A DNA stretch of 64,000 nt, taken from the IMG/VR virus record IMGVR_UViG_3300035180_001778, positions 1-64,000 of that record; one strand, given 5' to 3'. The DNA is from a virus. Positions 692-62,757 of this stretch are shown here, piece after piece. The number at the start of each line of letters is the position of its first letter. Within the stretch, counting starts at the first letter, position 1. The notes below the pieces were generated by a model. It was not told the DNA's origin. It saw nothing but the letters and a program-made list of their open reading frames with translations, and ran no database searches. Position numbers and translations under genes: made by a program.

Positions 692-1081
692 ATGGCCTAC
701 GAAATTGGGGATTGGCTGGAGCTTGAAGGACCCGCCTACTGGGCTGAAGTGGTCGCTCTTTCTGCGGATGGTATCTGGCTTCTGGCGGTGGGCGAATCCG
801 TAGACACCTCATTCGAGAAGATCGAGCTTGGCTGGGCCCCGTTCAAACCGAGAGAAGGGGGCACGCTGGTCCCTCATTGGGTACACCATGACGCGGTGTT
901 CGTGGACAAGGATCCCACACACTTCCGAAATATGGTCTCCGTCGTGACCATCAAAAAGGGCTGGCTGTCTTACCGCCGGGACGACTCGAAACAATTCAGG
1001 ATTTCGTCTTGGGATGACTTCTGTTTGGAATGGTCGCCTTTGAAGCATCCCACGGCCTGGGATGCCATCCTGGAGGATTGA
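692..1081 (+). CDS. Hypothetical protein with C-terminal acidic tag
   Basis: 129 residues. An upstream in-frame extension exists, but MAYEIGDWLELEG at 692 is chosen because the stretch before it overlaps the divergent gene at 348-674 and because an extended -10 like element (TGGTGTAAT) lies 9 bp upstream. The N-terminal part looks like a small beta-barrel. It ends in HPTAWDAILED, one of the clearest copies of the shared tag. The next gene begins one base after its stop. Function unknown. Confidence 0.75.
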   Translation: MAYEIGDWLELEGPAYWAEVVALSADGIWLLAVGESVDTSFEKIELGWAPFKPREGGTLVPHWVHHDAVFVDKDPTHFRNMVSVVTIKKGWLSYRRDDSKQFRISSWDDFCLEWSPLKHPTAWDAILED

Positions 1082-1082
1082 T

Positions 1083-1445
1083 ATGCCTGACCTGGTTATT
1101 TGGGATCTGAGATTCCCCACCTCGAACTCCGAGGAGTTCACTCGTTTCCGTCACTTTCAATCAGTCTTGAGAAGCGACGAGCATGTTCAAGAGGTGCATG
1201 TCTATTCACCCCCAAACAGTGCTCAGTCTGAAATGACTGTCTGCTTCCGAGACGGGTATAGCCGGCCTCACACCCATGAAGTCCAAGGGCTCAATGTTCT
1301 GTATCCCGCTCGATGGGCGATGGGGCAACCCCAGCTCATTCGCAAATTCGTGAGCCACATCGACTATAAGCACTATGGGCCGTCTTCGGTGCCGAGTGTT
1401 CGGACGTGGCATGAGCGTCTGATGAAAGAAGACGAAGACTTCTGA
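1083..1445 (+). CDS. Hypothetical protein with C-terminal acidic tag
   Basis: 120 residues beginning MPDLVIWDLRFPT, one base after the stop of the previous gene, so the two are co-transcribed. No family recognised. The C-terminus RTWHERLMKEDEDF is a copy of the T-W-x-x-x-L-[LM] acidic tag. An extended -10 element (CTGGTGTAGA) lies just after the stop and probably serves the next gene. Confidence 0.75.
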   Translation: MPDLVIWDLRFPTSNSEEFTRFRHFQSVLRSDEHVQEVHVYSPPNSAQSEMTVCFRDGYSRPHTHEVQGLNVLYPARWAMGQPQLIRKFVSHIDYKHYGPSSVPSVRTWHERLMKEDEDF

Positions 1446-1571
1446 TTTCTGTCCGAGACACGATATCTCTGGTGTAGAGTGGGTATACGACCGGGGCTCA
1501 GAGGAGTCTCTGTCTCCCTCGGAGTCCTCAGTGGAGGACCGAGGGTCGAAACACTCACACAGAGGTGTGTC

Positions 1572-2420
1572 ATGGCGAAGATCAAGGAAGGCTCGAACTC
1601 GTTTCTACTCCAGACCCTCACGGCGGTTCTCGCTTCGGAGGGCGCTCTCCGGCCCGACAAGGTGGACGCGGTGCGGACCAAGTTCCTGGAGCGGCTGATG
1701 TCGGAGCCGATGGGCAAGCAGTACCCGGCGGAGACGAACCGCCACGCCTGGACGATACTATCCAGGCTCTTCCCCGTCACGGAACAGGCGCCGGTTCTGG
1801 ATCTTCACAAGGAGGTTCCGATCGAGGCGCTCAAGCTTCCGGAGGCTGTCCGTTCCAAGACGGAAGAGGCTCTTCGGAACTTCCTTCAGGGGAAGGAGGA
1901 GAAGACTCCGCCCTCGAACCCGGGCGTGAATCTCGCGCTCGATCCGGCGGACATGGACCTCCTTTTGGAGGACGTGAACGATGCCGCTCCGGCTGCCCTG
2001 AAGGATGGCCTTCAGGTGGCTCTGGAGGAAACGGCAGACCGTTTCGCGAAGGGGTTGAAGCACCCCTTCATCGATACTCTCCGTCACGACGGGAAGTACT
2101 ACACGGTCGTCGGTACGGCGGTCATTCACTCGGCGAAGCGGGCGGGTTGCACGAGGAACTCGAACTGCACGGTCAACAACCTCCGTCGCATCAAGGACGC
2201 GGATGAGCGCATCCTGGTCCACCGCGACGGTCGTCCGATGGTCGTCTCTCGCGAGCTGGAGAATGGTGGCGGGGTCTGCTTCGTCTGGCTTCTTCACCAG
2301 AAGCCGGGGCTGGGCATCCGGTTCTGGCTGAACGAGAGGGACAACGGGACCTCGAAGGACAACCCGCGGGGGACCTTCCGGGTCACGCTGACTGAGGATG
2401 GCTGGAAGAAGGCCGGCTGA
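1572..2420 (+). CDS. Hypothetical protein, 282 aa
   Basis: Begins MAKIKEGSNSFLLQ and ends ...LTEDGWKKAG before a strong terminator. Residues 1-150 look helical and acidic; residues 170-282 form a beta-rich part with HDGKYYTVVGTAVIH and RELENGGGVCFVWLL. A CTGGTGTAGA promoter-like element sits near 1470 and a roughly 100-base leader with an imperfect hairpin (about 1518-1543) separates it from the start, so this gene, unlike many here, is not leaderless. No family recognised. Confidence 0.7.
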   Translation: MAKIKEGSNSFLLQTLTAVLASEGALRPDKVDAVRTKFLERLMSEPMGKQYPAETNRHAWTILSRLFPVTEQAPVLDLHKEVPIEALKLPEAVRSKTEEALRNFLQGKEEKTPPSNPGVNLALDPADMDLLLEDVNDAAPAALKDGLQVALEETADRFAKGLKHPFIDTLRHDGKYYTVVGTAVIHSAKRAGCTRNSNCTVNNLRRIKDADERILVHRDGRPMVVSRELENGGGVCFVWLLHQKPGLGIRFWLNERDNGTSKDNPRGTFRVTLTEDGWKKAG

Positions 2421-2424
2421 AACG

Positions 2425-2463
2425 AAAAAAGCCCCCGGAGCGAGATGCTCCGGGGGCTTTTTT
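2425..2463. terminator. Bidirectional intrinsic terminator
   Basis: Perfect stem (GCCCCCGGAGC paired with GCTCCGGGGGC) with a 5-base loop, preceded by six A and followed by six or seven T. It can stop the rightward gene ending at 2420 and the leftward gene ending at 2468. Confidence 0.9.
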
Positions 2464-2804: not shown

Positions 2805-3230
2805 TCACAGAGGATGCGAAATCTCTGTTGCCAACCGCTGTCCGAGGTCATAGGCAGTCCGGGTTCCCTCGGAAGGGAATCTAGCTGCATCGCACCCCGC
2901 GAAGAATGAGATAGTCCCGGCGACCCCGACGCCGAGGAGCCTGCTTACCGTGGCGGTGGGAGCATACCTAACCCGCATTTCGTAGATGTAGGTCTCGGCG
3001 CCTTGATTCTCGTTGAGAATCAAGGCGCCGAGGAGATTCACAGGAAGTCCTGGGTTCGATCTCCATGGTGTGCCTTGTACCCACACGTGGGAGTCTTCGT
3101 CATAGGTGACGCCCCAGTCGCCGGACTGGACGATGATGCCGCGGGCTTTGCAGGCGAGGCAGGCCGCCGTGATCCGTTCTTCGATCTCATCGAAGTCGTT
3201 GAGGATCAGGTCCCAAGCCGTCGTGCTCAT
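2805..3230 (-). CDS. Hypothetical protein with tag-like N-terminus
   Basis: 141 residues. It begins MSTTAWDLILNDFDEIEE, the shared acidic tag placed at the N-terminus rather than the C-terminus. A later hydrophobic segment (LLGVGVAGTISFFAGC) could be a membrane helix. The coding sequence contains an 18-bp perfect inverted repeat at 2994-3032. Start overlaps the stop of the upstream gene (ATGA). Last gene of a three-gene leftward operon; function unknown. Confidence 0.7.
   Translation of the reverse strand: MSTTAWDLILNDFDEIEERITAACLACKARGIIVQSGDWGVTYDEDSHVWVQGTPWRSNPGLPVNLLGALILNENQGAETYIYEMRVRYAPTATVSRLLGVGVAGTISFFAGCDAARFPSEGTRTAYDLGQRLATEISHPL
2994..3032. repeat. Perfect 18-bp inverted repeat inside a gene
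   Basis: Arms CTCGGCGCCTTGATTCTC and its exact complement are separated by 3 bases, within the coding sequence of 2805-3230. There is no T run, so it is not a classical terminator. Confidence 0.9.
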
Positions 3231-3469
3231 GGCCCGGCATACACCAGAAGCTTCTTGGCCATCAACGACATGAGGATCGCGTCGTTGAGGATGGGGCTCT
3301 TTTTTTGAAGGTCAGGGATCGGATCCGGGGCGTAGTACTCCGTGAGGAGGTCGCGCACGGCTGTCTCCGGCATCGGTGGCAACTTGAAGTCGTTGCAGCC
3401 GTGATTGCCGAACTCGTCGGCCGCCATCTCCAGGAGGATGCCCGCCAGCCGCATCTCGCTTGGGGTCAC
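3227..3469 (-). CDS. Hypothetical protein, 80 aa
   Basis: Middle gene of a leftward operon, joined by ATGA overlaps at both ends (3227-3230 and 3466-3469). Begins MTPSEMRLAGILLEMAADEF. Mostly helical and acidic at the N-terminus, ending LMAKKLLVYAGP. No family recognised. Confidence 0.7.
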   Translation of the reverse strand: MTPSEMRLAGILLEMAADEFGNHGCNDFKLPPMPETAVRDLLTEYYAPDPIPDLQKKSPILNDAILMSLMAKKLLVYAGP

Positions 3470-3948
3470 AGGTCATCCTCCAGGATCTTGGCCCAAGCAT
3501 TCAACGGGCCCGCGACAACAGCCGGCGTGTCCTCCCAGAGGAGCTGCCCCTTCAGGTGAACCGGCCGCCAGAGGTGAGCCCGCCGCTCCCTCTTCCATGT
3601 GTTGTAGGGCACCTTCTGGTAGTCCCCGCCCTCGGTCGGCCAGTAAACGAAGGTCGGATTCCCGATTTCTTCGTCGGCGGTCATGTCCTGGTTCGGGTGG
3701 AAGAAGGCGTGGCCGGGGCCCTTCGCGAGCTGGACATAGCTCGGATTTGCGCCTTCCGGCTTCATGAGCTTGCGGGCGGTGAGTTCCGCGCAGCCCTTCA
3801 CCTCCATGGCGTTCTCCACGAACGCCTTCCTGAAGAGGTCTGCAACCCGGTCAGTCATTTCTGAGTTCGGAGTGAGAAAGAGGACGGATCCTCCATCGAG
3901 CACAGTCTGTGCGACTTCCAGGCGGAGTTTCTTGTCGAGCTTGGGCAT
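3466..3948 (-). CDS. Hypothetical protein with C-terminal acidic tag
   Basis: 160 residues, first gene of a leftward operon. The C-terminus PLNAWAKILEDDL is a near-perfect copy of the shared tag. The body has a beta-rich central part (PGHAFFHPNQDMTADE). The promoter is an extended -10 (CTGGTGTAAG) 11 bp upstream, back to back with the rightward TTGATC promoter of the lipoprotein gene. Function unknown. Confidence 0.75.
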   Translation of the reverse strand: MPKLDKKLRLEVAQTVLDGGSVLFLTPNSEMTDRVADLFRKAFVENAMEVKGCAELTARKLMKPEGANPSYVQLAKGPGHAFFHPNQDMTADEEIGNPTFVYWPTEGGDYQKVPYNTWKRERRAHLWRPVHLKGQLLWEDTPAVVAGPLNAWAKILEDDL

Positions 3949-5117: not shown

Positions 5118-5924
5118 CTAGCATGGGGCGGGACTACACCGCCCCATGCTGTCCAGCTCAGTGCATGGTGGGGGTGTCGGTCGAGGGGCTTGAGCCCTGA
5201 AGAGCCGGTAGCGATGAAACCGGACCAGCTCGACCGGAAGGATCTGCACAAGGGCCGTCGACTTTGCGCAGTCGAGGATGCATTGAGCAATCACACCATC
5301 GATTTGCGTCAGGCTCAGACCAACCAACTCGTTGGCGATGCCAGGAGCGTTGTACTTCATGCCCTGAACTTGCGCGGTGCTGCTATTCGACTGGGGCGCC
5401 ATCTCTTGAAACATCTTGTCCAAGGTGTCCAGGTGCGTCTGAATGCTCTCCAGGTCCTCGACGAACCGCTCCGGAACGACATGCACGATGTCCGCGAGGT
5501 CCTCGGGGATTCCCTTGGAGCTGCCCACGAAGACCAAAGTGTGCGTGTCGCACGGATCCAAGGTGCGCCGGCTCGCCTTGTCCCGAATGTGGCGATGAGC
5601 TTCCGGGTCCTGAAGCCAGCGATCTCCGTCGAGGATGATGTAGATCCGACGGAAGTCGTCGGACTGGGGGAGCGAAAGAAAGAACTTTCGAAAGCGGACC
5701 GGCACCAAGCGGACCGGGGGTCGCACCCCTTGCGCAAGATACTCGCGCAGAGGAACAAGACCGCGTTCGGAGTTGAACACCTCGATCCTCGTGTGGTTCT
5801 CGGGGTCTGTCGTATCCGCCGCCTTCATCCCATTCAAGATGCGGAGCAAAGCCCCTTCCTCCGCATTGACGTAGATGTGCGGGAGCATGCCGCGAAGCAG
5901 TCGAACGAATGCGTCCTTGTCCAT
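5118..5924 (-). CDS. Ycf46-like N-terminal domain without the AAA+ part
   Basis: 268 residues as read. It resembles the region preceding the AAA+ module in Ycf46-type ATPases: an opening like LLRGMLPHIYVNAEEGALL, a central IYIILDGDRWLQDPEAHRHI, then THTLVFVGSSKGIPEDL. No Walker A or B motif follows, so the protein stops before the ATPase domain and may act as a partner or dominant-negative form; that is inference. The last 20 or so residues look out of frame: adding one C to the CCCC run near 5170 gives the ending APSTDTPTMH and a stop just before the next promoter. Promoter: GTGGTGTAAC, 8 bp upstream. Confidence 0.6.
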   Translation of the reverse strand: MDKDAFVRLLRGMLPHIYVNAEEGALLRILNGMKAADTTDPENHTRIEVFNSERGLVPLREYLAQGVRPPVRLVPVRFRKFFLSLPQSDDFRRIYIILDGDRWLQDPEAHRHIRDKASRRTLDPCDTHTLVFVGSSKGIPEDLADIVHVVPERFVEDLESIQTHLDTLDKMFQEMAPQSNSSTAQVQGMKYNAPGIANELVGLSLTQIDGVIAQCILDCAKSTALVQILPVELVRFHRYRLFRAQAPRPTPPPCTELDSMGRCSPAPC

Positions 5925-5964: not shown

Positions 5965-6792
5965 TCAGTCGTCGTCTTCGAGGAAGGGCCTCTGTAGAAC
6001 CTCGAACGCCGTCGGGAGCTTCGCATGCTCCGCAGCTCGAATCGCCGCAGTACGGGCGTTTGCTTGAGGGGCAGGCACAGCCCTGGAGGTGTGCTCGATG
6101 AAGCTCGGACGGGGCGCGGGTTCGTCAACCGAGCGGGTGCTCCGATCCGAGAAGATGACCTGCCCGTTTCGGGTTCGTCCGATCTCTCGCATGTTGGCCC
6201 CAACCAGCTCTCGACGGAACGCGGTCTGATCCGTCGGGGGGCGCGTGACATTGAAGCGCGGCTGGCTGGCTGCCCCCATTCCCGAAGGCCTCGCTTGCTG
6301 CACAGGGGGATCGTAATCCAGCTCCCCGGTCGAGAAATCGATGTCGAGGCTTCCTCGCCGCCCGGTATCCCTCGCCACAGCCCCACCCCAGATGTCCTCC
6401 AGGCTCCCCAGGGACGCCGCCGGGTCCTCAGCGGGCTCATCTTCGGAGTCGAAGGAGGCTGCATACTCACGCCGAAAGACGTTCCTGTCCTCTCGGGGAG
6501 CCCGAGGAACGGGCATGCGCTGCGTGTAGCCTTCGGCGGCCCTCATCTCTCGGAGGGCGCTGCTCGATAGGAGCATCTCGGGGGTGAGGTCGGGGAGCTG
6601 TTGACGGATCGCAGCTTGACTCGCGGTTCGGGCCATTGTTGCTGGTCGTTGTAGCTTGACTCGCGGTTCGTGTTGCTTCTGAGCGAGAAGCTGACGCAAG
6701 GAGCCTTCAAGACAGGAGCAAGCTCCCGCGATGTGGTCCTCCCAATAGATCATCTGATGACAGCTCTTGCATTGAGCAATGACGGTGGCCAT
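5965..6792 (-). CDS. Unknown protein with zinc knuckle and tag-like tail
   Basis: 275 residues. A small Cys cluster opens it (CKSCHQMIYWEDHIAGACSC, residues 8-27), probably binding zinc. The middle is long, Arg/Pro/Glu-rich and likely disordered. It ends PTAFEVLQRPFLEDDD, a variant of the shared acidic tag. An 18-bp direct repeat (6613-6630 and 6653-6670) lies in the coding region in two different frames. Function unknown. Confidence 0.7.
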   Translation of the reverse strand: MATVIAQCKSCHQMIYWEDHIAGACSCLEGSLRQLLAQKQHEPRVKLQRPATMARTASQAAIRQQLPDLTPEMLLSSSALREMRAAEGYTQRMPVPRAPREDRNVFRREYAASFDSEDEPAEDPAASLGSLEDIWGGAVARDTGRRGSLDIDFSTGELDYDPPVQQARPSGMGAASQPRFNVTRPPTDQTAFRRELVGANMREIGRTRNGQVIFSDRSTRSVDEPAPRPSFIEHTSRAVPAPQANARTAAIRAAEHAKLPTAFEVLQRPFLEDDD

Positions 6793-10609: not shown

Positions 10610-11083
10610 CTACTTCTTCTCGGTGTTCTCGACCGTCCCGATCTCATCGCCCTCTTCGAGGAGCTTTGAGTGCCAAGTGGTCGGCTCCGGCGGGATCTTC
10701 TTTGCCCGAGACTTTCGCGGGGCCTTCTTGGGAGGCGAAGGGATCTCGGGGAAGAGTTCAGGTGAGGTGTCGCCCGCGGGGCGAAGGGCCGCGATCTGTT
10801 CTCGAAGATCCGCAATCGCTTGTTGGGCTCGACCTTGGAGGTGGGTGCGCCTCTGCACCTCCTCTTCCAGTCCTTGGATCTTCGCTCTGTCCAGGCGTTG
10901 CAAGGCGTCTGCAATGCGACGGTGCTTGCGAGCCCCTCTCAGGTAGGAGTCGAAACACCCGAGGAAGAAGAACGCGTTGAGCGCAAGAACCCCCCAGGGA
11001 TGCACCTTGCACCACTCGAAGATAGGGAGCGCCCACGTCTTCAAGTCTTGCCACACTGCAACGGCGTCGGGGTTCATCGCCAT
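10610..11083 (-). CDS. Membrane-anchored coiled-coil protein with tag near its C-terminus
   Basis: 157 residues. One hydrophobic segment (VLALNAFFFLGCFDSYL, about residues 32-48) is followed by a heptad-rich coiled coil (about 55-100) and a basic Pro/Lys-rich stretch. Near the end, TTWHSKLLEEGDEI is a copy of the shared acidic tag followed by an 11-residue tail. The layout resembles phage spanins or membrane tethers, but there is no lysis-gene neighbour to confirm this. Three bases separate it from the downstream gene. Confidence 0.65.
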   Translation of the reverse strand: MAMNPDAVAVWQDLKTWALPIFEWCKVHPWGVLALNAFFFLGCFDSYLRGARKHRRIADALQRLDRAKIQGLEEEVQRRTHLQGRAQQAIADLREQIAALRPAGDTSPELFPEIPSPPKKAPRKSRAKKIPPEPTTWHSKLLEEGDEIGTVENTEKK

Positions 11084-13250: not shown

Positions 13251-13736
13251 ATGCCGAAGGTTATCGTTCTGCAAGGTCCGTCTGGGGTGGGGAAGTCCAC
13301 GATCGCCAAGAAGTTGATCGATGGCGTCCCCCAGTCCGTCATCGTCTCCACGGACGATTCGTTCATCAACGAGGCAGGCGTGTACGAACACGATCTGTCC
13401 AAGCTCGGAGAGGCTCACGGGGCGTGCTTCCGCTCGTTCCTCCGCGCTCTGGAAGCGGACAAGGCGCTCATCATCGTGGACAACACGAATACGTGCGCCT
13501 CCGAGATTTCGCCCTACATGCTCGCGGCTTCGGCCTTCGGGTACGAAGCGGCCATCCTGCGCATCGAGTGCTCCGTCGAGAAGGCGGCAGCTCGGAACCT
13601 GCACGGGACTCCCCTGGACGTCGTCCAGGCCATGGCCGCTCGGGTCGCCGAGCCCCTCCCGCTCGGGTCGCCGAGCCCCTCCCGCCCTACTGGACGGTCG
13701 AGACGATCACCAACGACTAGTCAAAGTCGTCCGTGA
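13251..13736 (+). CDS. P-loop kinase (AAA_33 / polynucleotide-kinase-like), frameshifted by a 23-bp tandem duplication
   Basis: Begins MPKVIVLQGPSGVGKST, a Walker A motif at residues 8-16. STDDSF and IIVDNTNTC match the D-x-S/T and NTN motifs of the zeta-toxin / polynucleotide kinase group (Pfam AAA_33). Likely a nucleotide or RNA-end kinase. A 23-bp unit (GCTCGGGTCGCCGAGCCCCT and 3 more bases) occurs twice in tandem at about 13635-13680 and shifts the frame. With one copy the protein ends AEPLPPYWTVETITND at 13720, where its TAG shares a CTAG with the convergent gene. That exact junction supports the one-copy version as ancestral. Confidence 0.8.
   Translation: MPKVIVLQGPSGVGKSTIAKKLIDGVPQSVIVSTDDSFINEAGVYEHDLSKLGEAHGACFRSFLRALEADKALIIVDNTNTCASEISPYMLAASAFGYEAAILRIECSVEKAAARNLHGTPLDVVQAMAARVAEPLPLGSPSPSRPTGRSRRSPTTSQSRP
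13635..13680. repeat. 23-bp tandem duplication inside the kinase gene
   Basis: Two identical adjacent copies of a 23-bp unit beginning GCTCGGGTCGCC. Because 23 is not a multiple of 3, it replaces the last 10 or so residues of the kinase. Confidence 0.85.
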
Positions 13737-14004
13737 GAAGCTGTTCCTCAAAGGACTTCGGGGGCAGCTTCTTTTTCTGGTACTTCGGCGTTCCGTCATA
13801 CTCGGCCGCAATCCGAGACACGCAGTCCGGCCAGTGCTTGCAGCCGTAGAAGCGGCCGTAGGGACCGTCGATAAGCCTCATGGGCCCACGCTCGCAGACA
13901 GGGCAAGACAGCTTCATCCTGTGGGTGATAGCTATCTGGTTCATCCTCAACTGAACCCCCGGCAAACGCTGTTTGGGGACCCATCCTTCAGGGTAGCGTT
14001 TCAT
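13717..14004 (-). CDS. Topoisomerase-type zinc-ribbon protein with C-terminal tag
   Basis: 95 residues. C-P-V-C...G-x-F-Y-G-C...P-D-C (about residues 34-62) matches the C4 zinc ribbon found at the C-terminus of bacterial topoisomerase I, here free-standing, so single-stranded nucleic-acid binding is likely. It ends SFEEQLLTDDFD, a copy of the shared tag. The start at 14004 has a good GGGGAG Shine-Dalgarno and follows the upstream gene by 4 bases. Last of a four-gene operon. Confidence 0.75.
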   Translation of the reverse strand: MKRYPEGWVPKQRLPGVQLRMNQIAITHRMKLSCPVCERGPMRLIDGPYGRFYGCKHWPDCVSRIAAEYDGTPKYQKKKLPPKSFEEQLLTDDFD

Positions 14005-14008: not shown

Positions 14009-14614
14009 TCACTCCCCAATGGAGTCGTCGAGGATTGCTTCCCACGCGTTCGTGACCCCGAAGTGTTCTCGCACCAAGATGGCAAGCTTTCCGCACATCT
14101 CGATGGAGAATCGGGCGATGTGGGCCTCTGTGGGGAGGATGCCCATGGTCTCAGCCATCCAGGTGTAGGCCTGGATTCGGCTCAGATTGGAGCCGGGCTG
14201 GTTCCAGATACGGTCGAAGACCAGGTGGACCGCAGTGCGGGCTTGACGGGTCGCGAGATCCCCAGGGATACCTTTCGGAGCGCCGTCTGCATTGGCCCCG
14301 TGAGTGCCCTTGCACGCGGGGTAGGAAGGGCACCCGTAGAAGAGCCCGTGCATGGACTTTCGGAGCTGCATGAATGTCTTCGCGCAGTCGGGGCACTTCA
14401 AGTCGAAGCGCTCACCCGAGAGACCCATGCCCACGGGTTTCTCGTCCATGTCGATGTCGTAGATGGTCTGAACCTTGGGGTTCTTGAACAGGTCCTCAAC
14501 CGAGATGTGGTCACACGAGGTGTACGGCTCGTTGGGGTTGAAGATGGCCCGGCAGATGAGGCAGCGCGGAGGGCTCATCCCCATGCCGCTTTGGGGGTCT
14601 AGCTGATGGGGCAT
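14009..14614 (-). CDS. Zinc-finger protein (two Cys clusters) with C-terminal tag
   Basis: 201 residues from 14614; starts at 14584 or 14578 are possible. An N-terminal C-x-x-C is followed by a second topoisomerase-like C4 ribbon (CPDCAKTFMQL...FYGCPSYPAC). The helical second half ends VTNAWEAILDDSIGE, one of the best copies of the shared tag. Together with the neighbour at 13717 it makes a pair of free-standing topoisomerase-type ribbons. Function beyond nucleic-acid binding unknown. Confidence 0.75.
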   Translation of the reverse strand: MPHQLDPQSGMGMSPPRCLICRAIFNPNEPYTSCDHISVEDLFKNPKVQTIYDIDMDEKPVGMGLSGERFDLKCPDCAKTFMQLRKSMHGLFYGCPSYPACKGTHGANADGAPKGIPGDLATRQARTAVHLVFDRIWNQPGSNLSRIQAYTWMAETMGILPTEAHIARFSIEMCGKLAILVREHFGVTNAWEAILDDSIGE

Positions 14615-14635: not shown

Positions 14636-15148
14636 CTAGATGTCGTCGTCGTCCATCTTCTCCCAGGCCGTCGGACGACGCTGATCGTTCGGCTTCCCCG
14701 TGTCGATCGACGTGACTTGGCCGTTTTCGATGTGGATGGTCGTACGATCTGCGCCGGTCTTGACAGGATCGAAGTTGCCCATGATCCAGAACGCAGGGGT
14801 GCTCCCAGGCTCGATCGTGAGCTTGAGATTTCGGCCCCCCGTGTGTTCGATGGATAGGTCGAAATTCCGATGCGATTCTTTCCCATTGCGGACCGCCGAG
14901 CGGATTTGATACTTCCCCGGCTGAGTGGCTTGTCTCTCTCGATAGACCAGTCCCCCCGTCGAGCGGGCTCCCGCTGCAATCGGAATGTCGTCCCATTCCC
15001 CCGTTGCTGCGAACTGATGCTGCACATGGTCATTCCCCCCGATGGGGGTTGTGGCCGTGGCGACGAGCATGAGGAGGTCTTCGTCCCCTTCATCAACGTC
15101 GAGAGGTTCGAGTTCGACGACATCACATGTGAAGTTGATCCGGATCAT
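14636..15148 (-). CDS. Beta-rich hypothetical protein with C-terminal tag
   Basis: 170 residues. Starts at ATG 15148 in ATGA overlap with the upstream stop. Pattern of short strands (KLTIEPGSTPAFWIMGNF and TTIHIENGQVTSIDT) suggests a beta sandwich. It ends RRPTAWEKMDDDDI, a shortened form of the tag with four Asp. Function unknown. Confidence 0.75.
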   Translation of the reverse strand: MIRINFTCDVVELEPLDVDEGDEDLLMLVATATTPIGGNDHVQHQFAATGEWDDIPIAAGARSTGGLVYRERQATQPGKYQIRSAVRNGKESHRNFDLSIEHTGGRNLKLTIEPGSTPAFWIMGNFDPVKTGADRTTIHIENGQVTSIDTGKPNDQRRPTAWEKMDDDDI

Positions 15149-26987: not shown

Positions 26988-26998
26988 GGGGGTCTCCA

Positions 26999-28898: not shown

Positions 28899-28900
28899 GC

Positions 28901-46998: not shown

Positions 46999-47462
46999 TG
47001 AGCACCCGAGGTTGCGTGGCAGTGGGCAATTACTCCCAGTGGCAAGGCGTCTACAACCACTGCGATTCGTACCCCACAGGTCTTGGGAAAGAGTTGTGGG
47101 ATTGGGTGCAACAGGCCGGCAAAACGGGTCTGGGTTTTGACTCCCATCTCAAACTCTTGCTCAAATCGAAGAGGTGGGAAGCCTTCGTTGGCAAGAGGGA
47201 GGTAGACGAATCTGAACCCTTGATGACCAGTGAGAGATACAACTTCGATATCAGGTGGATCTATATCATCGACCCCCAAGCAGACACCCTGATCGTCTCT
47301 TACCGCAATGGGGAGGGTGGGCGGGACTCCTACGCTTTCCCGCTGGCTGGGCCCGAACCCGACTGGGCCGAACTCGAACAATGGGTGGGGAAGAACACGA
47401 CGCCGTCCACCCCGGAGCCCCCCAAGACCTTCTGGGACCAGCTCAACACGGACGAGCTGTGA
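46998..47462 (+). CDS. Conserved hypothetical (W-x-G-V-Y-x-H-x-D-S-Y-P family) with C-terminal tag
   Basis: 154 residues. RGCVAVGNYSQWQGVYNHCD then SYPTGLGKELW matches a small family seen in many bacteria and phages in which this Y-x-H-x-D-S-Y-P motif is invariant; its role is unknown. The Pro-rich linker PSTPEPPK leads into TFWDQLNTDEL, a tag variant. GTGA overlap with the next gene. Confidence 0.75.
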   Translation: MSTRGCVAVGNYSQWQGVYNHCDSYPTGLGKELWDWVQQAGKTGLGFDSHLKLLLKSKRWEAFVGKREVDESEPLMTSERYNFDIRWIYIIDPQADTLIVSYRNGEGGRDSYAFPLAGPEPDWAELEQWVGKNTTPSTPEPPKTFWDQLNTDEL

Positions 47463-49043: not shown

Positions 49044-49976
49044 ATGTCCTCCCCCGCGCGCCCCTTTCTCAAATGGGTTGGTGGCAAGACCACCCTTCTA
49101 TCCTTCCTCCTCAAGACCTACCCCAAGAAGATCGGGACCTACTACGAACCCTTCCTTGGGGGTGGCGCTAGTTTCTGGGCGCTCGCTCAAGAGAAGAGGT
49201 TCGAGAAGGCCGTCCTGACCGACTTGAATGCCGAGCTGGTCAACGCATACCTGATGGTCGGCGGCTTCGGTGAAGAGGTGATTCGAGACCTTCTTGCGGT
49301 ACAAACCGCGTATCGCATCGCCCCCAAGGAAACGTTCACGACCTGGCGGCAGATGGACCCGGCGCTTCTGGAGCCGGTCACCCGAGCTGTCAGGATGATC
49401 TTCCTGAATAAGACCTGCTTCAACGGCTTGTACCGGACCAACAAGAAGGGGCAGTTCAACTCTCCCTGGGGGAAAGAAGAGAACGCCTCGATTTGCGATG
49501 GGGCCAATATCTCGGCTTGTGCGGAGGTCCTCCGGAGGGTCGATTCGACACTGGACGGACTCACCATTCAGCACAAGCCGTGGTGGCAAGAGGTCTCTCA
49601 GGCTCAGCCGGGGGACCTCGTCTACTTCGATCCCCCCTACGTGCCGGTCTCTGACACCGCGAGCTTCACGGGATACACTTCAGAGGGCTTCCCTGAAGCG
49701 GAACAGAGAGCCCTCGCCAAGAGCTTCTCTGAGCTGGCAGAACGTGGGGTGGCCGTCGTCCTCTCGAACTCGGATACGCCCCTTGTGAGAGAGCTGTACG
49801 AGGGGTGGGAAATTCACGAGGTGAAGATGGGGCGCTCTATCAACTCGGACGGAGCGAAGCGCGAAGCTGTGGGCGAAGTGGTCGTGGTGGGTCGCCGGGA
49901 CGGACTCACCCCTTTCATCTCGGAGCACCAAGAAGACCCCTTCGCCTACATGAACGCCCTCATGGAAGAGTTCTAG
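49044..49976 (+). CDS. DNA N6-adenine methyltransferase (Dam / D12 class)
   Basis: 310 residues. FLKWVGGKTTLL (residues 8-19) and YYEPFLGGGASFWAL form the SAM site; YFDPPYVPVS is the D-P-P-Y catalytic motif; the order is that of alpha-class D12 enzymes such as Dam. It likely methylates adenine in a short motif, protecting phage DNA from restriction or marking it. No partner nuclease is seen, so it is a solitary methylase. GGGGGAGGG lies before the ATG and GCGGTGTAGC further up. Confidence 0.9.
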   Translation: MSSPARPFLKWVGGKTTLLSFLLKTYPKKIGTYYEPFLGGGASFWALAQEKRFEKAVLTDLNAELVNAYLMVGGFGEEVIRDLLAVQTAYRIAPKETFTTWRQMDPALLEPVTRAVRMIFLNKTCFNGLYRTNKKGQFNSPWGKEENASICDGANISACAEVLRRVDSTLDGLTIQHKPWWQEVSQAQPGDLVYFDPPYVPVSDTASFTGYTSEGFPEAEQRALAKSFSELAERGVAVVLSNSDTPLVRELYEGWEIHEVKMGRSINSDGAKREAVGEVVVVGRRDGLTPFISEHQEDPFAYMNALMEEF

Positions 49977-51225
49977 CGAACTTGACCTTCCCAGGGATGG
50001 CGATGTGGAGCCAGTGTCGGACTTGCTCCGGCACTCGGCCGGGACCGTAGGCGACCATGAGCCCAATGGCCTCGCAGAAGGCCTCCTCGGGGTTCTTGTT
50101 GGCGTAGGCTGTGATGGGTGTCGAGGGGACTCGAACGGTCTTGGTGCCCTCTGAGAGGAGCTTCTCGAAGTCGTCTCGGTTGAAGCGGTCGTGCAGGTAG
50201 GCACGGTCGTGAGACAGCGCATCGAGCTGGAGCGCAAGAACGGGGTCCGATGTCTCCAGGTGCTTCATCAGCGAATGCGTGAAATGTCCGACGTTGGGGG
50301 GCCACTTGCTCAACAGCTCGGCGATGTCGAGTTCCTTCAGGTCCCCGCTGATCACGGCGTACCAGAAGTCGCTCCCATCCTTGCCGAGGTGCTTGAACAG
50401 GTGGTGGCCCATCTCGTGAGCCATCACATGGGTTGCCCACTCGGGCCGTTCTGAGATCAAGGAGGCCGTCGAGAGAGTGATGGTGCCGTCTCCGTTGTAG
50501 CGGCCCCCCTCATCGAGGGTCATCCCGAAGTCCAGGATGACCGGGAGCTGGTTCTGGATCAACCAGGGGAGAATCTTGGCGGCTTTGGTCTTGTAGTCCT
50601 GGAGCCCCTGCTTCAGCTTCGAGAGAACCTTCTCATTCCAATGCGTATCGGACAAGTCGGTTCGATCGGACTTGAACCCGTGCATGATCACCTGGAATCC
50701 TTCCAAGGTGATCGTCTCATCCTTCGGGACATCAACAGGGATTTCGGGCGCCATCCCATTTGTCTTGAGCATCTCGAAGACTTCACGCATCGCTGTCCAG
50801 AAGACTCGGGCTTTGGCTTGAACGCGAGCCTTCCACTTGGGGGCATTGCGCTCGAACTCCAAGAACCGGCTCTCCTCGGAGTAATACTCGTTGGCAAACC
50901 CGATGGGCATGCTCTTCAGCTCCGACATCCATGTCCAAGCGACCGCACGAGTCTTGTGGTCGATCCAAGAGACATCGTGTCCTGTTGCCTTGGAAATGTC
51001 GTACTTGACGGCGTCCCCAAGGAAGTGCTTGAAGAACATGTCATCGAACCGATTGGAGTAGATCCGAATCGCTACCCGCAGCTCATGCGCTGTCTTGTAG
51101 TCTTTGACCAGGGGTATGTTCTTGACCAGCGTCAAGAAGTCCTTCCGGAGCTTCTCGATGAGAGCAAGGTCGACCATGACCTTGTCGGCGATCAGGAACC
51201 TGGCGAGAACTCGGTGAGCGATCAT
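49960..51225 (-). CDS. Zinc metalloprotease (HExxH)
   Basis: 421 residues from MIAHRVLARFLIADKVMVDL; start in ATGA overlap with the topoisomerase stop. Catalytic HVMAHEMGHHLFKHLG near residue 282. A late Glu for the third ligand lies about 20-60 residues on. The N-terminus carries the R-V-L-A-R-F motif found in all four genes of this cluster. Its substrate is unknown; a virion or ejected-protein protease is possible. Converges with the methyltransferase gene (17-bp overlap). Confidence 0.8.
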   Translation of the reverse strand: MIAHRVLARFLIADKVMVDLALIEKLRKDFLTLVKNIPLVKDYKTAHELRVAIRIYSNRFDDMFFKHFLGDAVKYDISKATGHDVSWIDHKTRAVAWTWMSELKSMPIGFANEYYSEESRFLEFERNAPKWKARVQAKARVFWTAMREVFEMLKTNGMAPEIPVDVPKDETITLEGFQVIMHGFKSDRTDLSDTHWNEKVLSKLKQGLQDYKTKAAKILPWLIQNQLPVILDFGMTLDEGGRYNGDGTITLSTASLISERPEWATHVMAHEMGHHLFKHLGKDGSDFWYAVISGDLKELDIAELLSKWPPNVGHFTHSLMKHLETSDPVLALQLDALSHDRAYLHDRFNRDDFEKLLSEGTKTVRVPSTPITAYANKNPEEAFCEAIGLMVAYGPGRVPEQVRHWLHIAIPGKVKFARTLP

Positions 51226-52958
51226 CGGAAGGACACCGGGCGCAGGAAGTAGTAGGCAAACCACTTCTCGCTCTCATACCCCTTCATCGCGTCCAAGAGG
51301 TCGTACATCTTGTCGCTCGGGGCCTCTCGTCGGATTTCTGCGTCCGCTGCCTTGATGCGGCGTTCGAGATTGTCGAGCCAGTGATCGAGGGCTTGGGCCA
51401 TCTTGGGATCGCTCATGTCCTGGGGGACCATCTCCGCCGTGACCTCCCGGGCGTACCGCGTCCCCTTGAAGAAGAACTGGAACCACTTGGTGTGTTGGCG
51501 CTCGCCGATGGCATCCGTGAGCTGCACGAAGGCCTTCCCGGGTGTGCCCTGCCCCCGAAGCTCCTGGTTGGCCCGCTGAGTCAACTGGAGCAGGTTGTCG
51601 AGCCACTTGTCGAGGTCCTTCGACATCGTTCCGGGGTCAACCCAGGAATCGGAGTTGTCGTCGTAGTAGCTCGCTTCCTTGTACTTCGACATGAAGCGGG
51701 CGAGGATCCGTTCCGACTGGTCATGCTCTTCGGGTTTCCCGTGGCAGCTACAGCTCTCGCACCCCTGCTTGAGGGACGCCGCCTTCTCGTGGAGCTTGTC
51801 CATGACCGTCCCATCCTTCAGATATGTGTCCTCCAGTCCGGGGACGAGATACTGGCTCTTCAGCGTGGCAGGCTCGTGGCCCACGGCTTCCGCTGTGACT
51901 TCGAGGGCTTCCTTGAACTCTTCCTTGAGCTGCTTCTCCCGCTTCTTGGGGTCTTCGGGGAGCTTGCCGCCCTTCTTCCTGGAGGCCTTGAGCTGGTCCT
52001 GCATCTCGACGTTCGCGTGCAACCCACGGATGTCCTTTGCCGAGATGTCAAATTCCTTCAGGTAGGCGTTCACCTTCTCGGCTGAGACCTTGCCCCCGTC
52101 CCACTCGAAGATACAGGACGTCTCGTTCTCGGCCGCCTCACAGGCATCCTTGAGCGCCTTGGTGATGGTCGAGTCGGTCACCTTCTTGACGTGCTTGACG
52201 CCGGACTTGCCGACGTACTTGATGGTCGCCCCGCCCTTGCTGAAGGTGATGTGGTCCTTCTGCCAGCCCGTGACCCCGAAGTGCCCGTCGTCCGCGCTCT
52301 CGTCGTTCCCGACCCGCTCGAACGTGTGATCCATCAGCATCACGGCGAGGGCCGTGAGCATCTTCTCGGGATCGCTCGACTTCAGGTCCTTCTTGGCCTT
52401 CGAGCGGACGTCGTCGATCTTGCCCCGGAGCTTCTCGATTCGCTTCGCCTTCTCCCGGTTCCGGTTGGCGATCTGCTTGTCGGAGTACTCGTAGACGGTC
52501 ATATCCTCGCCGTCTTGAGTCTTGACCTTCTTTTTCTTCTTGTAGCGGGCCGCGACTTTTTCGGTGATACCCATCATCTTGAGTTCGATCGGGGAGTAGA
52601 ACTGGAACACAGGGTTGGGAATGGTCACGGTCGACGCCGAAGAGATGTCGTCCCGCTGGAACACGTAGGGATTCCCGATGGTGCCTCCCTTGGGGTCGCG
52701 GGATGTCCACAGCTCGGACTTCCCATACACTCCCACGAAGACGATCCAAGAGCCTCCGTCGATGACCCCGAGGTAGCCTCCAACCTCTTTGGGGTTGGAG
52801 TAAATCTCCGTCAGGCCCGCGGTCAGAGCAGGGTGGTCCGCCATCTCCGGCGGTAGAGGCATCCCCCCGGAGCTTCCCCTTGCCACGACGGATCGTAGAG
52901 CGGCCTCCCGGCGGGAGACGACATGTTGAGCAGCTACTCGGAGGGACCGGCTGTGCAT
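51222..52958 (-). CDS. DNA topoisomerase IB with C-terminal repeat extension
   Basis: 578 residues from MHSRSLRVAAQHVVSRREAA, 5 bases after the upstream stop. Poxvirus-type active site: Arg in TFERVGND, Lys in KSGVKHVKKV, Arg in AKDIRGLHANVEM, His in AVGHEPATLKSQY and the nucleophile Tyr in that same segment. Residues 1-400 cover the enzyme. Residues 405-578 are extra: CESCSCHG, then RILARFMSKYKEA, then two repeats with D-x-W-L-D-N-L ... K-W-F-x-[FY]-[FY]. It relaxes supercoils. Confidence 0.9.
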   Translation of the reverse strand: MHSRSLRVAAQHVVSRREAALRSVVARGSSGGMPLPPEMADHPALTAGLTEIYSNPKEVGGYLGVIDGGSWIVFVGVYGKSELWTSRDPKGGTIGNPYVFQRDDISSASTVTIPNPVFQFYSPIELKMMGITEKVAARYKKKKKVKTQDGEDMTVYEYSDKQIANRNREKAKRIEKLRGKIDDVRSKAKKDLKSSDPEKMLTALAVMLMDHTFERVGNDESADDGHFGVTGWQKDHITFSKGGATIKYVGKSGVKHVKKVTDSTITKALKDACEAAENETSCIFEWDGGKVSAEKVNAYLKEFDISAKDIRGLHANVEMQDQLKASRKKGGKLPEDPKKREKQLKEEFKEALEVTAEAVGHEPATLKSQYLVPGLEDTYLKDGTVMDKLHEKAASLKQGCESCSCHGKPEEHDQSERILARFMSKYKEASYYDDNSDSWVDPGTMSKDLDKWLDNLLQLTQRANQELRGQGTPGKAFVQLTDAIGERQHTKWFQFFFKGTRYAREVTAEMVPQDMSDPKMAQALDHWLDNLERRIKAADAEIRREAPSDKMYDLLDAMKGYESEKWFAYYFLRPVSFR

Positions 52959-52963: not shown

Positions 52964-54841
52964 CTACATCAGGGGCGACGTACAAGAGAAATCTCCCCCA
53001 AGAAGCTGGAACCGAGCGAGGACTTGCTCAGCGGTCACGAGGGAGGATCGCTTCAGGATGAGCTTGAAGGTTTCGAGCTGGTCACGAGACATGTCCCAGT
53101 TCATGACGTAGGACCGAAACACCTCGGCCCATGCTTCGCCAATGTTGCTCCGGCCATAATCAGAGACAGGGAGGACCTCACGAGGATCAGCATCCCACTC
53201 GTCTTCCCAGGCCTTGGTGCGAAGCTCGATGTTGGTTTCTTGAAGCTCCTTCGCGTTCGAGTCCTTGATCGATTCGTCGATGAATGCGAAGGAGGTCTTC
53301 ATCGATTCGTCGATGAGAGCAATGCCCTTTTTGGCCCAAGCCGCCAAGATAGCCTTGAACGCAGTGTTCTTTGCCTCCTCGTCAGGGTACTTGGTGAGCT
53401 TCAGGGCCAGCTTGGGTGCCGCTTTGAAGTACACGTAAAGAGCCTTGCTCTTGGCGAAGGCATCCCAGTACAGCTTCTCGATCTCGGGGGTCCCTCGCTT
53501 CCAGGTGGTGTTCGTGAACACACTGGAAAGTTCATCCCGATGCTTCTTCGCAGCCTCTTCCAGAGGGGGCCCGAACTTGGCGAGAGTCTCCTGATACCCC
53601 AATTTGGAGTCCGTCATGTTCCCCAAGGGCTCTGCAATCGCCCCGAGGAGATCGAGAATCTGGTTTTTGCCCTTCTTGATCTTCTCGGGAGGGATGATGT
53701 AGGGGTCCCTCGTCTTCTCGGGCTTCTTGTTCTTATGCACCCGGACGAGGCTCTCAAAGAACTCTCGCTGTCTTGAGGAGAGCTGATGGAACCAGTACCT
53801 ATGGCCCAGCTCGTGGGCCATATAGCCCACGATGTGTTCGCTAGGGCGGGCGTAAATCATGACGACGTCTTTGCCGATATTGTATCTACCGGCTACTCCC
53901 AGGTCCGCCCCATTTTGATTGACCCCACCGCACGACTCACATTGAATGAAGACGACACCATACCACGCAGACTCAAGCTTCTTGGCTCGAAGGCGGTTGT
54001 AGGTCTCGTCGAGGTATCTGATGTAGAGACGGGTGTCGTCAGGGGTGACCTTCGAGTCCTCGATGATGACCCGCATCCCGTACATGTCAAAGTCGGTGAC
54101 TGTCGGAGTAGGGTTCGCTTCTTGGGCTTGTGCTGAGAACTTCTCGATGAGGTCCTTTTGAACGACGTCCACCCAATCCATGATCCATCCCCCGAACCCA
54201 GAGGGAGACTTGAGCAGAAGCTTCTTGCTGGCAGCGGTGAACCCCGACTGAGTCAGGTACTCCCAACGCCGCTTGCTGTCCGCGTCGTCTCCAAAAGACT
54301 CGGCCATGCCGTTCTTGAAGGCGGCGATCAGCTCGGGGGTTGTGATGCCCTTGAGGGCTTTCTGGACAAGGCTGTCCCGCTTCGGTAGGTCCACCCTCCA
54401 GTAGTACTTGATGTAGTCGAGCAGCGTGGAGACCTGGTCTTTGAAGGCGTACTCGATGTCAATACGTATCGTCCACTTGAGATACCCCTCGATATCCCCC
54501 GGAGCCGGAGTAGGGACAGATGTCAACATCTCCGCTGACTTCTGAGCCACCATGAGGTTCTCGGCCATGATCTTGTACCGAGTGTTGATGTACTCCCGGG
54601 CCGGGGCGAACGTGATGATGCTGTTGAAGTCTTCCTGGAATTCCAGGAAGAAGGTCTTCAAGTCCGTCATGACCTTGTACGCCACGTCCTCGGGGCTATT
54701 CGAGTTCCCCAGGGGAGTCTTGAGGCGCTTCCGCAATTCGGCCTTCTTCTCTTTGAAGAACTTGCTCGAAAGGAAGAACTCCGGGTCAGGAGCCTTCTTC
54801 GCCCCAAGGAATCGGGAAACTACACGAGAGGATAGAGACAT
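52964..54841 (-). CDS. Large zinc metalloprotease (HExxH)
   Basis: 625 residues. Catalytic VGYMAHELGHRYWFHQ at about residue 340, C-E-S-C just before it, and a helical C-terminal half with an internal IDES[MI]K repeat. MSLSSRVVSRFLGAKK opens it and AEQVLARFQLLGGD nearly ends it, both versions of the R-V-[LV]-[AS]-R-F motif. Distant from the other protease at 49960. The stop precedes the topoisomerase start by 5 bases. Confidence 0.8.
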   Translation of the reverse strand: MSLSSRVVSRFLGAKKAPDPEFFLSSKFFKEKKAELRKRLKTPLGNSNSPEDVAYKVMTDLKTFFLEFQEDFNSIITFAPAREYINTRYKIMAENLMVAQKSAEMLTSVPTPAPGDIEGYLKWTIRIDIEYAFKDQVSTLLDYIKYYWRVDLPKRDSLVQKALKGITTPELIAAFKNGMAESFGDDADSKRRWEYLTQSGFTAASKKLLLKSPSGFGGWIMDWVDVVQKDLIEKFSAQAQEANPTPTVTDFDMYGMRVIIEDSKVTPDDTRLYIRYLDETYNRLRAKKLESAWYGVVFIQCESCGGVNQNGADLGVAGRYNIGKDVVMIYARPSEHIVGYMAHELGHRYWFHQLSSRQREFFESLVRVHKNKKPEKTRDPYIIPPEKIKKGKNQILDLLGAIAEPLGNMTDSKLGYQETLAKFGPPLEEAAKKHRDELSSVFTNTTWKRGTPEIEKLYWDAFAKSKALYVYFKAAPKLALKLTKYPDEEAKNTAFKAILAAWAKKGIALIDESMKTSFAFIDESIKDSNAKELQETNIELRTKAWEDEWDADPREVLPVSDYGRSNIGEAWAEVFRSYVMNWDMSRDQLETFKLILKRSSLVTAEQVLARFQLLGGDFSCTSPLM

Positions 54842-61317: not shown

Positions 61318-61325
61318 ACATATCC

Positions 61326-61613
61326 TCAGTGGGTGGGATGGTTGGCCCCACGAATCAGAAAATCGTAATACTTCCGAGCCTTTGACTCTGCATCGGGGAC
61401 CCCCTCCGAGCGCAAAGCGAGCTGGAATGTCCCCCGGATGAGCTGTGCGCCCTGCTCCGGGTTCGAGAGTAGTCGAAAGCATGGTCGACAATACTCGTAC
61501 TCATTTTGAGGCTCTTGCCCCATTTGTCGTACCGACTCCTTCTCGGAGTCCGATAGTCGAAGCGTGACACAGGCCGACGACTCGATCTTCTTCGAGCAAA
61601 CACAGCATTTCAT
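61326..61613 (-). CDS. Small zinc-binding protein, 95 aa
   Basis: MKCCVCSKKIESSACVTLRL then EYEYCRPCFRLL, two Cys pairs of a treble-clef or ribbon type. ATGA overlap with the upstream gene. Function unknown. Confidence 0.7.
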   Translation of the reverse strand: MKCCVCSKKIESSACVTLRLSDSEKESVRQMGQEPQNEYEYCRPCFRLLSNPEQGAQLIRGTFQLALRSEGVPDAESKARKYYDFLIRGANHPTH

Positions 61614-62242
61614 CCGACGTCCCCATACTCTTTCAAGAGCGTGTGCTGTACGTCTTCTATCGCAAGTTTACCCGAACAGACACGCTCCGCGAGTAGTAGC
61701 GCTTTGGAGATAGGTAGAGGGATATGTTTCAACACATGCTGACGGAGCTTGGAAGCCTCCATCTGGTGGAAATCTCGAATGGTGTCCGCTCTCGGGACGA
61801 TCCCTGTTCGAGGTCCGAATCGGTGCGGGTGGCAATCGTAGGGGTCCCCCGTCGACCAGGTTGTCCTACAGACGAAGGGTCGGCCCTCGTGTGCAGAGCA
61901 CTTGCTCTCAGAGAGAAGTGGGCAAGGGATGTTGCTCAGGAACCAGACTTCATGAGCAAGGCCCCATACCTGCGTCGAGTGAGTCTGGAGCTTTGCCTGT
62001 AGGCTCGCAGTCCAAAGCCCTCGTTCGACCAGCCATCGGAAGAGACTGATACCCTCAAGAATAGAGATCCCCACAGGGTGGGAACAGCAGGCGGAGCACT
62101 TCACGACACACGAGATTACCCGTCCGAGATCCTCTGCCGTGTCACGAACCGAAGCCTCGAAGGCCCCAGCTCGCTCGAAGCGTTGAGCTTCGACCTCATG
62201 TGTGTCTCTCTCCAAAAGAAGGGGGAGCGACCGTCGGGTCAT
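61610..62242 (-). CDS. YkgJ-like CxxCxxCC metal-binding protein
   Basis: 210 residues. CVVKCSACCSHPVG and NIPCPLLSESKCSAHEGRPF then VCRTTWSTGD follow the YkgJ (Fe-S or zinc chelating) pattern, with Cys spacing C-x3-C-x2-CC and C...C...RP-x-x-CR. Such proteins are linked to methylation or oxidation of targets, but the role is not established. Joined to both neighbours by ATGA. Confidence 0.75.
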   Translation of the reverse strand: MTRRSLPLLLERDTHEVEAQRFERAGAFEASVRDTAEDLGRVISCVVKCSACCSHPVGISILEGISLFRWLVERGLWTASLQAKLQTHSTQVWGLAHEVWFLSNIPCPLLSESKCSAHEGRPFVCRTTWSTGDPYDCHPHRFGPRTGIVPRADTIRDFHQMEASKLRQHVLKHIPLPISKALLLAERVCSGKLAIEDVQHTLLKEYGDVG

Positions 62243-62757
62243 TCGTCGAACTCGGCGTCATCGAGAAGATGGGTATAGGCGTTCTTCTCGGGTTTCGGCT
62301 TGACGGCGACGTGGGCGATTCGTTGCTTGACCGTCTTGAATTGCGCGGTGATGTCGATCCGCGAGCGGCCTTTCTCGTGAACGGCCACGAGGAGGTTCCC
62401 AGATTGCAGCCCCAACATGGGCGAGAAGAACACGGGCCCACCCATTCGAGCGGGGTCGCTCGCCACCCAGTCAACGTACAACCTCAAGGGTTCTTCCGTC
62501 GGAGTTGCCAGAGGCCCGATGATGCGAGCGATGTACTGCAACCGGCCCAAGCTGGGCCTGGACTGCATGACCACGAACGGCCACTCCGTCTGCGGGTTGG
62601 AGAGAACCGTCGCCTCTCCCTTGAGATCCGCATCGAAGCGAATCTCCTTCACCTGCCCGGAGGCTGCGAGAAGCTCCGACATGTGCGTACGCTTCAGGTC
62701 GTACTTGCGGACAATCCAGTGCTGCCCATCGTGCAGAAGAAGGTCTCCGAGCTTCAT
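62239..62757 (-). CDS. Hypothetical beta-rich protein with C-terminal tag
   Basis: 172 residues. MKLGDLLLHDGQHWIVRKYD opens a barrel-like domain; the Lys/Pro linker VKPKPEK precedes NAYTHLLDDAEFDE, a tag with Tyr in place of Trp. ATGA overlaps on both sides. Function unknown. Confidence 0.75.
   Translation of the reverse strand: MKLGDLLLHDGQHWIVRKYDLKRTHMSELLAASGQVKEIRFDADLKGEATVLSNPQTEWPFVVMQSRPSLGRLQYIARIIGPLATPTEEPLRLYVDWVASDPARMGGPVFFSPMLGLQSGNLLVAVHEKGRSRIDITAQFKTVKQRIAHVAVKPKPEKNAYTHLLDDAEFDE

Follow-up and report, generated by a model that had tools for sequence, protein, structure and literature searches.

Several described systems address proteins through short terminal peptides. 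In Escherichia coli, the ssrA peptide, which transfer-messenger RNA appends and which has Ala-Ala at its end, directs proteins to ClpXP, and the adaptor SspB has a basic and hydrophobic tail, belonging to that one adaptor, which tethers the protein to the zinc-binding domain of ClpX. Encapsulins and bacterial microcompartments take up unrelated cargo through encapsulation peptides, short terminal amphipathic helices carried on linkers, while bacteriophage T4 employs an N-terminal capsid targeting sequence that is cut off by the prohead protease. The acidic tails of SSB (DDDIPF) and the sliding-clamp peptides (QLxLF) each bind a single hub through an acidic or hydrophobic terminus. We know of no described virus that puts one genome-specific terminal peptide on a large share of its proteome. 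Here, we analyse a short acidic peptide, hereafter the tag, that recurs mostly at the C termini of unrelated proteins encoded in the first 64 kb (positions 1–64,000, the window) of the 350,469-base virus record IMGVR_UViG_3300035180_001778 (60% GC), whose window proteins point to a huge tailed phage. Judged from its sequence and distribution, the tag is very probably a docking motif read by one receptor.

A recurrent acidic tag at protein ends

A preliminary description of the window had reported the same peptide on about 17 proteins with no other similarity, and all the peptides that it quoted are present at the genes named. They share an ungapped 11-residue motif, [TNS]-x-[WF]-[DE]-[RHK]-[LI]-[LM]-x-[DE]-[DE]-[ILF], or a variant with the tryptophan one position earlier. 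Position 1 is T/N/S, W/F stands at position 2 or 3, D/E at 4, a basic or polar residue at 5, L/I at 6 and L/M at 7; positions 9 and 10 are D/E, and position 11 is frequently I/L/F/D. When tags were scored by an ungapped profile, 14 of the 15 listed C-terminal peptides and both N-terminal ones fitted the motif (score ≥10 with the clade-wide profile described below). The earlier count therefore holds for these peptides and fails for the tails of genes 34753, 6792 and 55852, the last of which scored 0.1 and is not supported as a tag.

The DNA examined from the source phage (G000) amounts to 264 kb, comprising the window and ten other 20-kb stretches, where some of the gene models came from a simple in-house codon-usage caller or were plain open reading frames (ORFs). 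In a held-out test, a profile made from 14 window tags only was run against the 244 predicted proteins of the ten other stretches. At a score of ≥15, eight matches fell at protein ends (2,196 positions) versus none at internal positions (48,304 positions), and 200 shuffles of the tails gave 0.01 matches on average and never more than 1. This comparison of ends with internal and shuffled positions had been set beforehand as the test of the tag, and the tag passed it clearly. Across the 264 kb, 30 ORF ends are tagged at a score of ≥9.

The linker before the tag is rich in Pro, Lys and Arg. T1-x-x-E4 would make a helix N-capping box (T-x-x-E/D), with positions 2/3, 6 and 7 forming a single hydrophobic face. 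The earlier picture of a short, amphipathic and acidic-ended peptide behind such a linker is borne out. AlphaFold models of two carriers (mean predicted local distance difference test scores of 48.8 and 37.7) have a short helix at the tag, and a helix is predicted at residues 190–195 of the protein from ORF 14009–14614; these are low-confidence models and were not used as evidence. More generally, the tag has the attributes of a short linear motif, being short, mobile, present on unrelated proteins and conserved against a diverging background. Searches of open-licence papers found no description of it, in keeping with the earlier impression that it is undescribed, and none of phage ClpX specificity.

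The peptides of the window are listed below, with their profile scores and their counterparts in a close relative of the source phage, G001 (IMGVR_UViG_3300020122_000238, 275 kb).

1046–1078, plus strand: HPTAWDAILED, C-terminal, ORF 692–1081; score 22.9; the G001 orthologue ends in TVWDAILED
1401–1442, plus strand: RTWHERLMKEDEDF, C-terminal, ORF 1083–1445; score 25.3; in G001 the tag is 10/11 and the linker 1/20 identical
3195–3224, minus strand: TTAWDLILND, N-terminal, ORF 2805–3230; score 20.9; the G001 homologue has the same tag at residue 4
3469–3504, minus strand: LNAWAKILEDDL, C-terminal, ORF 3466–3948; score 23.7; kept in G001
10640–10681, minus strand: TTWHSKLLEEGDEI, near-C-terminal, nine residues before the stop and the only quoted C-terminal peptide more than two residues from it, ORF 10610–11083; score 21.1; 9/11 identical in G001
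13720–13755, minus strand: SFEEQLLTDDFD, C-terminal on a Top1 Zn-ribbon protein (Pfam Zn_ribbon_Top1), ORF 13717–14004; score 16.3
14012–14053, minus strand: TNAWEAILDDSIGE, C-terminal on a DUF3268/Zn-ribbon protein, ORF 14009–14614; score 23.6; 11/11 identical in G001
14639–14674, minus strand: PTAWEKMDDDDI, C-terminal, ORF 14636–15148; score 25.6; in G001 the tag is 11/11 and the body 104/139 identical
20126–20161, minus strand: TNAWEALMADDD, in the N-terminal extension of a protein-kinase-like protein, ORF 19295–20209; score 27.8
28519–28551, minus strand: ATWHDHLMEDD, C-terminal, ORF 28516–28713; score 29.0; in G001 the tag is 10/10 and the body 12/35 identical
28713–28748, minus strand: PTWQERLLADDL, C-terminal, ORF 28710–28898; score 26.5; kept in G001
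28904–28942, minus strand: PTWQAHLLADEII, C-terminal, ORF 28901–29116; score 23.5; kept in G001
30454–30492, minus strand: TPFSKALLDDDIG, C-terminal, ORF 30451–30924; score 14.2
38735–38773, minus strand: TPFGKALLDDGIG, C-terminal, ORF 38732–39211; score 10.1; the G001 counterpart is TPFGKALLDDEIG
47427–47459, plus strand: TFWDQLNTDEL, C-terminal, ORF 46998/47016–47462; score 19.8; TFWEQLDADE in G001
62242–62283, minus strand: NAYTHLLDDAEFDE, C-terminal, ORF 62239–62757; score 18.8; the carrier traced furthest through the clade
34304–34339, minus strand: PWWDLVLPQDEG of gene 34753; score 4.4, not supported as a tag
5968–6015, minus strand: PTAFEVLQRPFLEDDD of gene 6792, a possible degenerate tag that retains a TAFEVL core; score 7.6, under threshold; end kept in G001

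The majority of carriers have no known domain. Those that could be recognised are an ArdC-like anti-restriction protein (L008:18100–18993), two Top1-type Zn-ribbon proteins, one of them also a DUF3268 protein, and the kinase-like protein; a helix-turn-helix protein is possibly among them as well. No carrier is a large structural protein. In the kinase-like protein (ORF 19295–20209), which shows weak similarity to MAD6 and PglW, two defence kinases, the HRD motif is changed to HGA, and it is therefore probably a pseudokinase, possibly serving as a decoy against host defence. Two further proteins, at window positions 49044–49976 and at L008:8163–9326, have the ends EDPFAYMNALMEEF and EDDFDYMEQLMAEFDGS, which are closer to each other than to the tag, and a large protein at L008:2886–6878, whose function is unassigned, has a different end, EADLFEF.

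The tag is mobile and under selection

Comparison with G001 and with the more distant G002 (IMGVR_UViG_3300036766_000988, 252 kb), which has many proteins in common with the source phage at ~35–70% identity, showed that the tag is mobile and under selection. For ten G000 tags compared with their G001 orthologues, identity is 87% in the tag, 65% in the preceding 20 residues and 68% in the body, and tags also occur in G001 on proteins without a homologue in the G000 DNA examined. The kinase-like protein carries its tag within an N-terminal extension in both G000 and G001; its G002 orthologue (39% identical) has no such extension, and its tag, TAWARLMDEDD, instead sits in an insertion that separates the DFG-like from the APE-like motif.

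These observations bear on the explanation that the tag has no function and that the 3′ ends of genes are common to the carriers through duplication or recombination. Some carriers are indeed paralogous, namely the three short ORFs at 28516–29116, by inspection, and part of a gene array in another phage, G009, described below. At residues that are shared between tags, however, third-base agreement is no higher than expected (0.46 observed versus a genome expectation of 0.47), and therefore the tags are not copied DNA. The bodies of the carriers are unrelated, the tag is conserved beyond the body, and the signal persists once paralogues are removed, making a functionless origin extremely improbable.

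Genome-specific dialects across a clade of huge phages

Searching with ClpX yielded 80 loci. The 15 best of them, at 54–97% identity, are monophyletic with a support of 1.0 even when the zinc-binding domain and recognition loops are left out. Over this clade of huge phages, with genomes of 93–529 kb, the tag recurs in genome-specific dialects. Leave-one-genome-out scans detected tags with local spellings in G006, G008, G010, G011 and G012, exemplified by TAFDHLLEGDD (G008), TAWEHLLDEG (G010) and LWDHL (G012). With a clade-wide profile, which includes clade tags and whose results agree with those of the leave-one-genome-out scans, eight clade genomes gave 68 C-terminal, four N-terminal and four mid-protein matches; applied to 850 proteins from eight phages that encode ClpX but lie outside the clade, the same profile gave no C-terminal match. 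Retrieval of clade members by DnaB, independent of ClpX, added one new contig only.

The carrier at ORF 62239–62757 illustrates the change of dialect between genomes. Its orthologues in eight other genomes have bodies that are 27–40% identical, and most end in a tag of the local dialect: NAFSRLLSDD in G002, TAFDHLLEGDD in G008, SRFTREADD in G009, TTLDRLMD in G007, NLYDHLMGDE in G012 and TVFDLLREE in G011, with the looser LFARLRKRDE in G013 and TLFRLLKDPE in G015. Since the dialects are specific to each genome, the tag looks as if it is co-evolving with a phage-encoded receptor.

Tagging is most extensive in G009, where 44 of 155 sampled proteins (~28%) end, by inspection, in RFDREEVL-like peptides, 14 of them having at least one paralogue in the set. 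A de novo test that assumed no sequence found one C-terminal pattern on 39/154 proteins, and after paralogue removal the pattern remained on 35/144 (−log10 P of 71 versus a null maximum of 6.8). G009 also contains a tandem array of ~30 same-strand genes of ~125–150 residues, mostly with RF[DE]RE-type ends (L187:5663–19727), and between most of its members there is little or no similarity in the body.

Outside the clade, no tag was found in the sampled stretches of two phages that are related through their head protease, the uncultured LR745208 (485 kb; full-length yet distant similarity to the query) and Tunturiibacter phage Tunturi_5 (309 kb; partial similarity), and no recurrent protein end was found in the 50 kb sampled from Agrobacterium phage Atu_ph07. 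The source phage additionally encodes a nicotinate/nicotinamide phosphoribosyltransferase, a eukaryote-type topoisomerase I core, a transglycosylase and GroEL (window 25602–26999, 51222–52844 and 35577–37259; L007:297–2015).

The breadth of tagging argues against a virion packaging signal, through which early proteins would be loaded in the capsid for co-ejection with the DNA, as with the T4 capsid targeting sequence or P1 DarA/DarB. An ArdC-like anti-restriction protein and a relative of defence kinases would be plausible ejection proteins; however, the 44 tagged proteins of G009 exceed what could be expected of capsid cargo, shared structural proteins of LR745208 reach 54% identity and the stretches sampled from it contain no tag, and a separate N-terminal [RK]VVxRF-type motif is already present on some proteins of these phages. 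Tags also stand in mid-protein positions, as in the G002 kinase-like protein, and so are not removable terminal propeptides. Together with the absence of large structural proteins from the carriers, this makes capsid targeting, one of the destinations first suggested for the tag, unlikely as its main role. A second suggestion, transport to a phage compartment (nucleus), found no support either: import in chimalliviruses works by a recognition surface, no conserved terminal signal having been found there (PMC11087766), and no chimallivirus hallmark or match appeared in the searches made, the shell protein not having been searched for specifically. The remaining suggestion, a hub protein, gives the best fit to a tag that is mobile, under selection and spelled in genome-specific dialects.

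The N-terminal motif of these phages, R-V-[VL]-[AS]-R-[FY]-[LM], occurs on 6/345 proteins, compared to ~1.8 expected, including an S-adenosylmethionine lyase-like protein, and is possibly a virion or processing signal itself. Its sites lie at window positions 49960–51225 and 52964–54841, at L001:4311–5102 and 5130–5480 and at L008:13984–14559, as well as in G001, G002 and LR745208.

The hub could also be a conserved host protein that the phage hijacks through the docking motif. Phage early proteins often aim at host machines, and ClpP, RNA polymerase and the like are always present. Across 84,980 bacterial and archaeal genomes, the TAWExLLxDD DNA pattern matched 29 times, never as a C-terminal tag. 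All are internal matches by chance, several in one recurring local context, and the idea that the tag came from bacteria or archaea was rejected. The wide differences between dialects also fit poorly with a receptor that is conserved in hosts, and we consider a host hub quite improbable.

Phage ClpX as a candidate receptor

Just past the window, at ~71–73 kb, the source phage encodes a ClpX with a zinc-binding domain and an AAA+ motor; it encodes no ClpP. ClpX is present in G000, G001 and G002, where the tag was found independently of ClpX, so that a ClpX with an intact motor is available to read the tag in all three, and neither of the two nearest tagless relatives, LR745208 and Tunturi_5, has it anywhere in its whole record. 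In E. coli, the ClpX residues touching the ssrA degron are Y153, V154, T199, V202, R228 and H230 (PMC7652416). The clade ClpX retains Y153, V154 and V202 in 17/17 sequences, whereas T199 is changed to Tyr or Phe and both R228 and H230 are lost in 17/17; among 71 other ClpX sequences, T/S199 is found in 65, R/K228 in all 71 and H/N230 in 66. The GYVG pore-1 loop, with invariant Tyr-Val, and the GF-type ClpP loop are retained, a variable sequence stands in place of the RKH loop, and several zinc-binding domains show an acidic-to-basic change, ICDEC to IC[ND][RK]C, which would plausibly suit an acidic ligand. The lost ssrA-contact residues, the replaced RKH loop and the swaps in the zinc-binding domain together indicate a ClpX with changed substrate recognition.

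These features suggest a mechanism in which the tag would act as a short linear docking motif, nearly always C-terminal, presented on unrelated proteins through the Pro/Lys/Arg-rich linker. Amphipathic in composition, it would become helical once bound to a single receptor, most likely phage-encoded and co-evolving with it. As the candidate receptor, the phage ClpX would have kept its AAA+ motor, pore-1 loop and ClpP-binding loop while its degron-recognition parts were rebuilt. Tagged proteins, which are mostly small and, where recognisable, resemble host-takeover proteins, would be passed to phage ClpX and host ClpP for timed turnover, or alternatively be remodelled by phage ClpX alone; both routes would run parallel to host ssrA traffic, and the outcome of tagging would be degradation or remodelling.

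Several points weigh against ClpX in this role. The contrast between its presence and absence compares one clade with two outgroups, and beyond G000–G002 its co-occurrence with the tag is not independent, because the other genomes were retrieved through ClpX. Further clade-specific genes co-occur with the tag, for example those for a DUF1848 protein and two small proteins; any of them might encode the receptor, as might a gene in unsampled DNA. Loss of the basic RKH residues alone gives no preference for an acidic tag, and the four mid-protein matches are easier to reconcile with docking than with a classical terminal degron. The sampled parts of G005, G007, G013 and G015 contained no strong tag by profile, despite a clade ClpX; gene sampling of these genomes was small, and the ORF 62239–62757 orthologues of G007, G013 and G015 end in merely tag-like peptides. 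The frequency of the tag thus varies within the clade. Because the co-occurrence of ClpX partly reflects how the genomes were retrieved and other genes co-occur as well, we place the identification of the receptor with the phage's own ClpX at a little below even probability.

Docking to another phage hub, such as a scaffold, a compartment or a replication or transcription assembly factor encoded by another clade-specific gene, is a rival reading. In the sampled DNA, several clade-specific proteins without assignment are as widespread as ClpX, plain docking tolerates mid-protein tags, and the dialects imply a co-evolving receptor while leaving its identity unnamed. However, no visible peptide-binding fold turned up in any candidate, and the changes in ClpX recognition would then have no partner, which leaves such a hub somewhat unlikely. 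A bolder reading, somewhat less likely than not, is a private terminal-tag system, in which a phage ClpX with matching recognition parts would operate orthogonally to host ssrA, with dialects that are incompatible between phages.

Other recurrent ends and implications

A different recurrent C-terminal peptide, approximately [D/K]A-M-[LM]-F-K-L-T-W-G-G, is present on many small proteins of G017 and others, in another ClpX-encoding phage lineage. It was counted on 20/133 non-paralogous proteins in G017 and 10/62 in the isolated Sinorhizobium phage Phosso (L231), and its loci further comprise L132, L210–L213 (G017), L116/L224/L225 (G022), L206/L207/L209 (G016) and L222/L130 (G020). The peptide could belong to a second tagging system or could mark a small domain that evolves fast, and it suggests that scans of protein ends may uncover further such systems.

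As far as we know, a lineage-specific terminal tag on about a tenth to a quarter of the proteins of a virus is a new kind of system; were it a plain degron, it would be better classed among degron–unfoldase pairs, as a new variant. If confirmed, the tag offers a handle on many proteins of huge phages whose function is not known, since those that bear it would be expected to share a partner or a fate. Its natural dialects supply a ready set of candidate orthogonal tag–receptor pairs and make the question of why huge phages encode their own ClpX directly testable.

Comparison with known systems

The consensus of the tag matches neither the DDDIPF of SSB tails nor the QLxLF of sliding-clamp peptides. 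Chimalliviruses likewise sort phage proteins by phage-encoded means. Encapsulation peptides are unrelated to the tag in sequence, and far more proteins are tagged in the phage; no shell or encapsulin gene turned up, although no search was aimed at them. With the T4 capsid targeting sequence, the tag shares the nature of a short terminal signal common to unrelated phage proteins, but it stands mostly at the C terminus, and some copies lie mid-protein, where cutting them out would split the protein. The tail of SspB resembles it as a short tail tethering to ClpX, a likeness extended by the clade zinc-binding domains with their acidic-to-basic change, and differs in that the phage tag is acidic, helix-like and present on many proteins. 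Like ssrA, it is a short, usually C-terminal peptide on unrelated proteins, and the clade ClpX has the same motor and ClpP loop; unlike ssrA, it is genome-encoded, acidic and amphipathic, ending in acidic or DDI/DDL/DE-like residues rather than in Ala-Ala or a small hydrophobic end, and the clade ClpX lacks the T199, R228 and H230 equivalents expected of a receptor for an ssrA-like degron. Although it thus departs from both ssrA and T4-type packaging signals, the tag appears nearest in action to the recognition of ssrA or of the SspB tail by ClpX.

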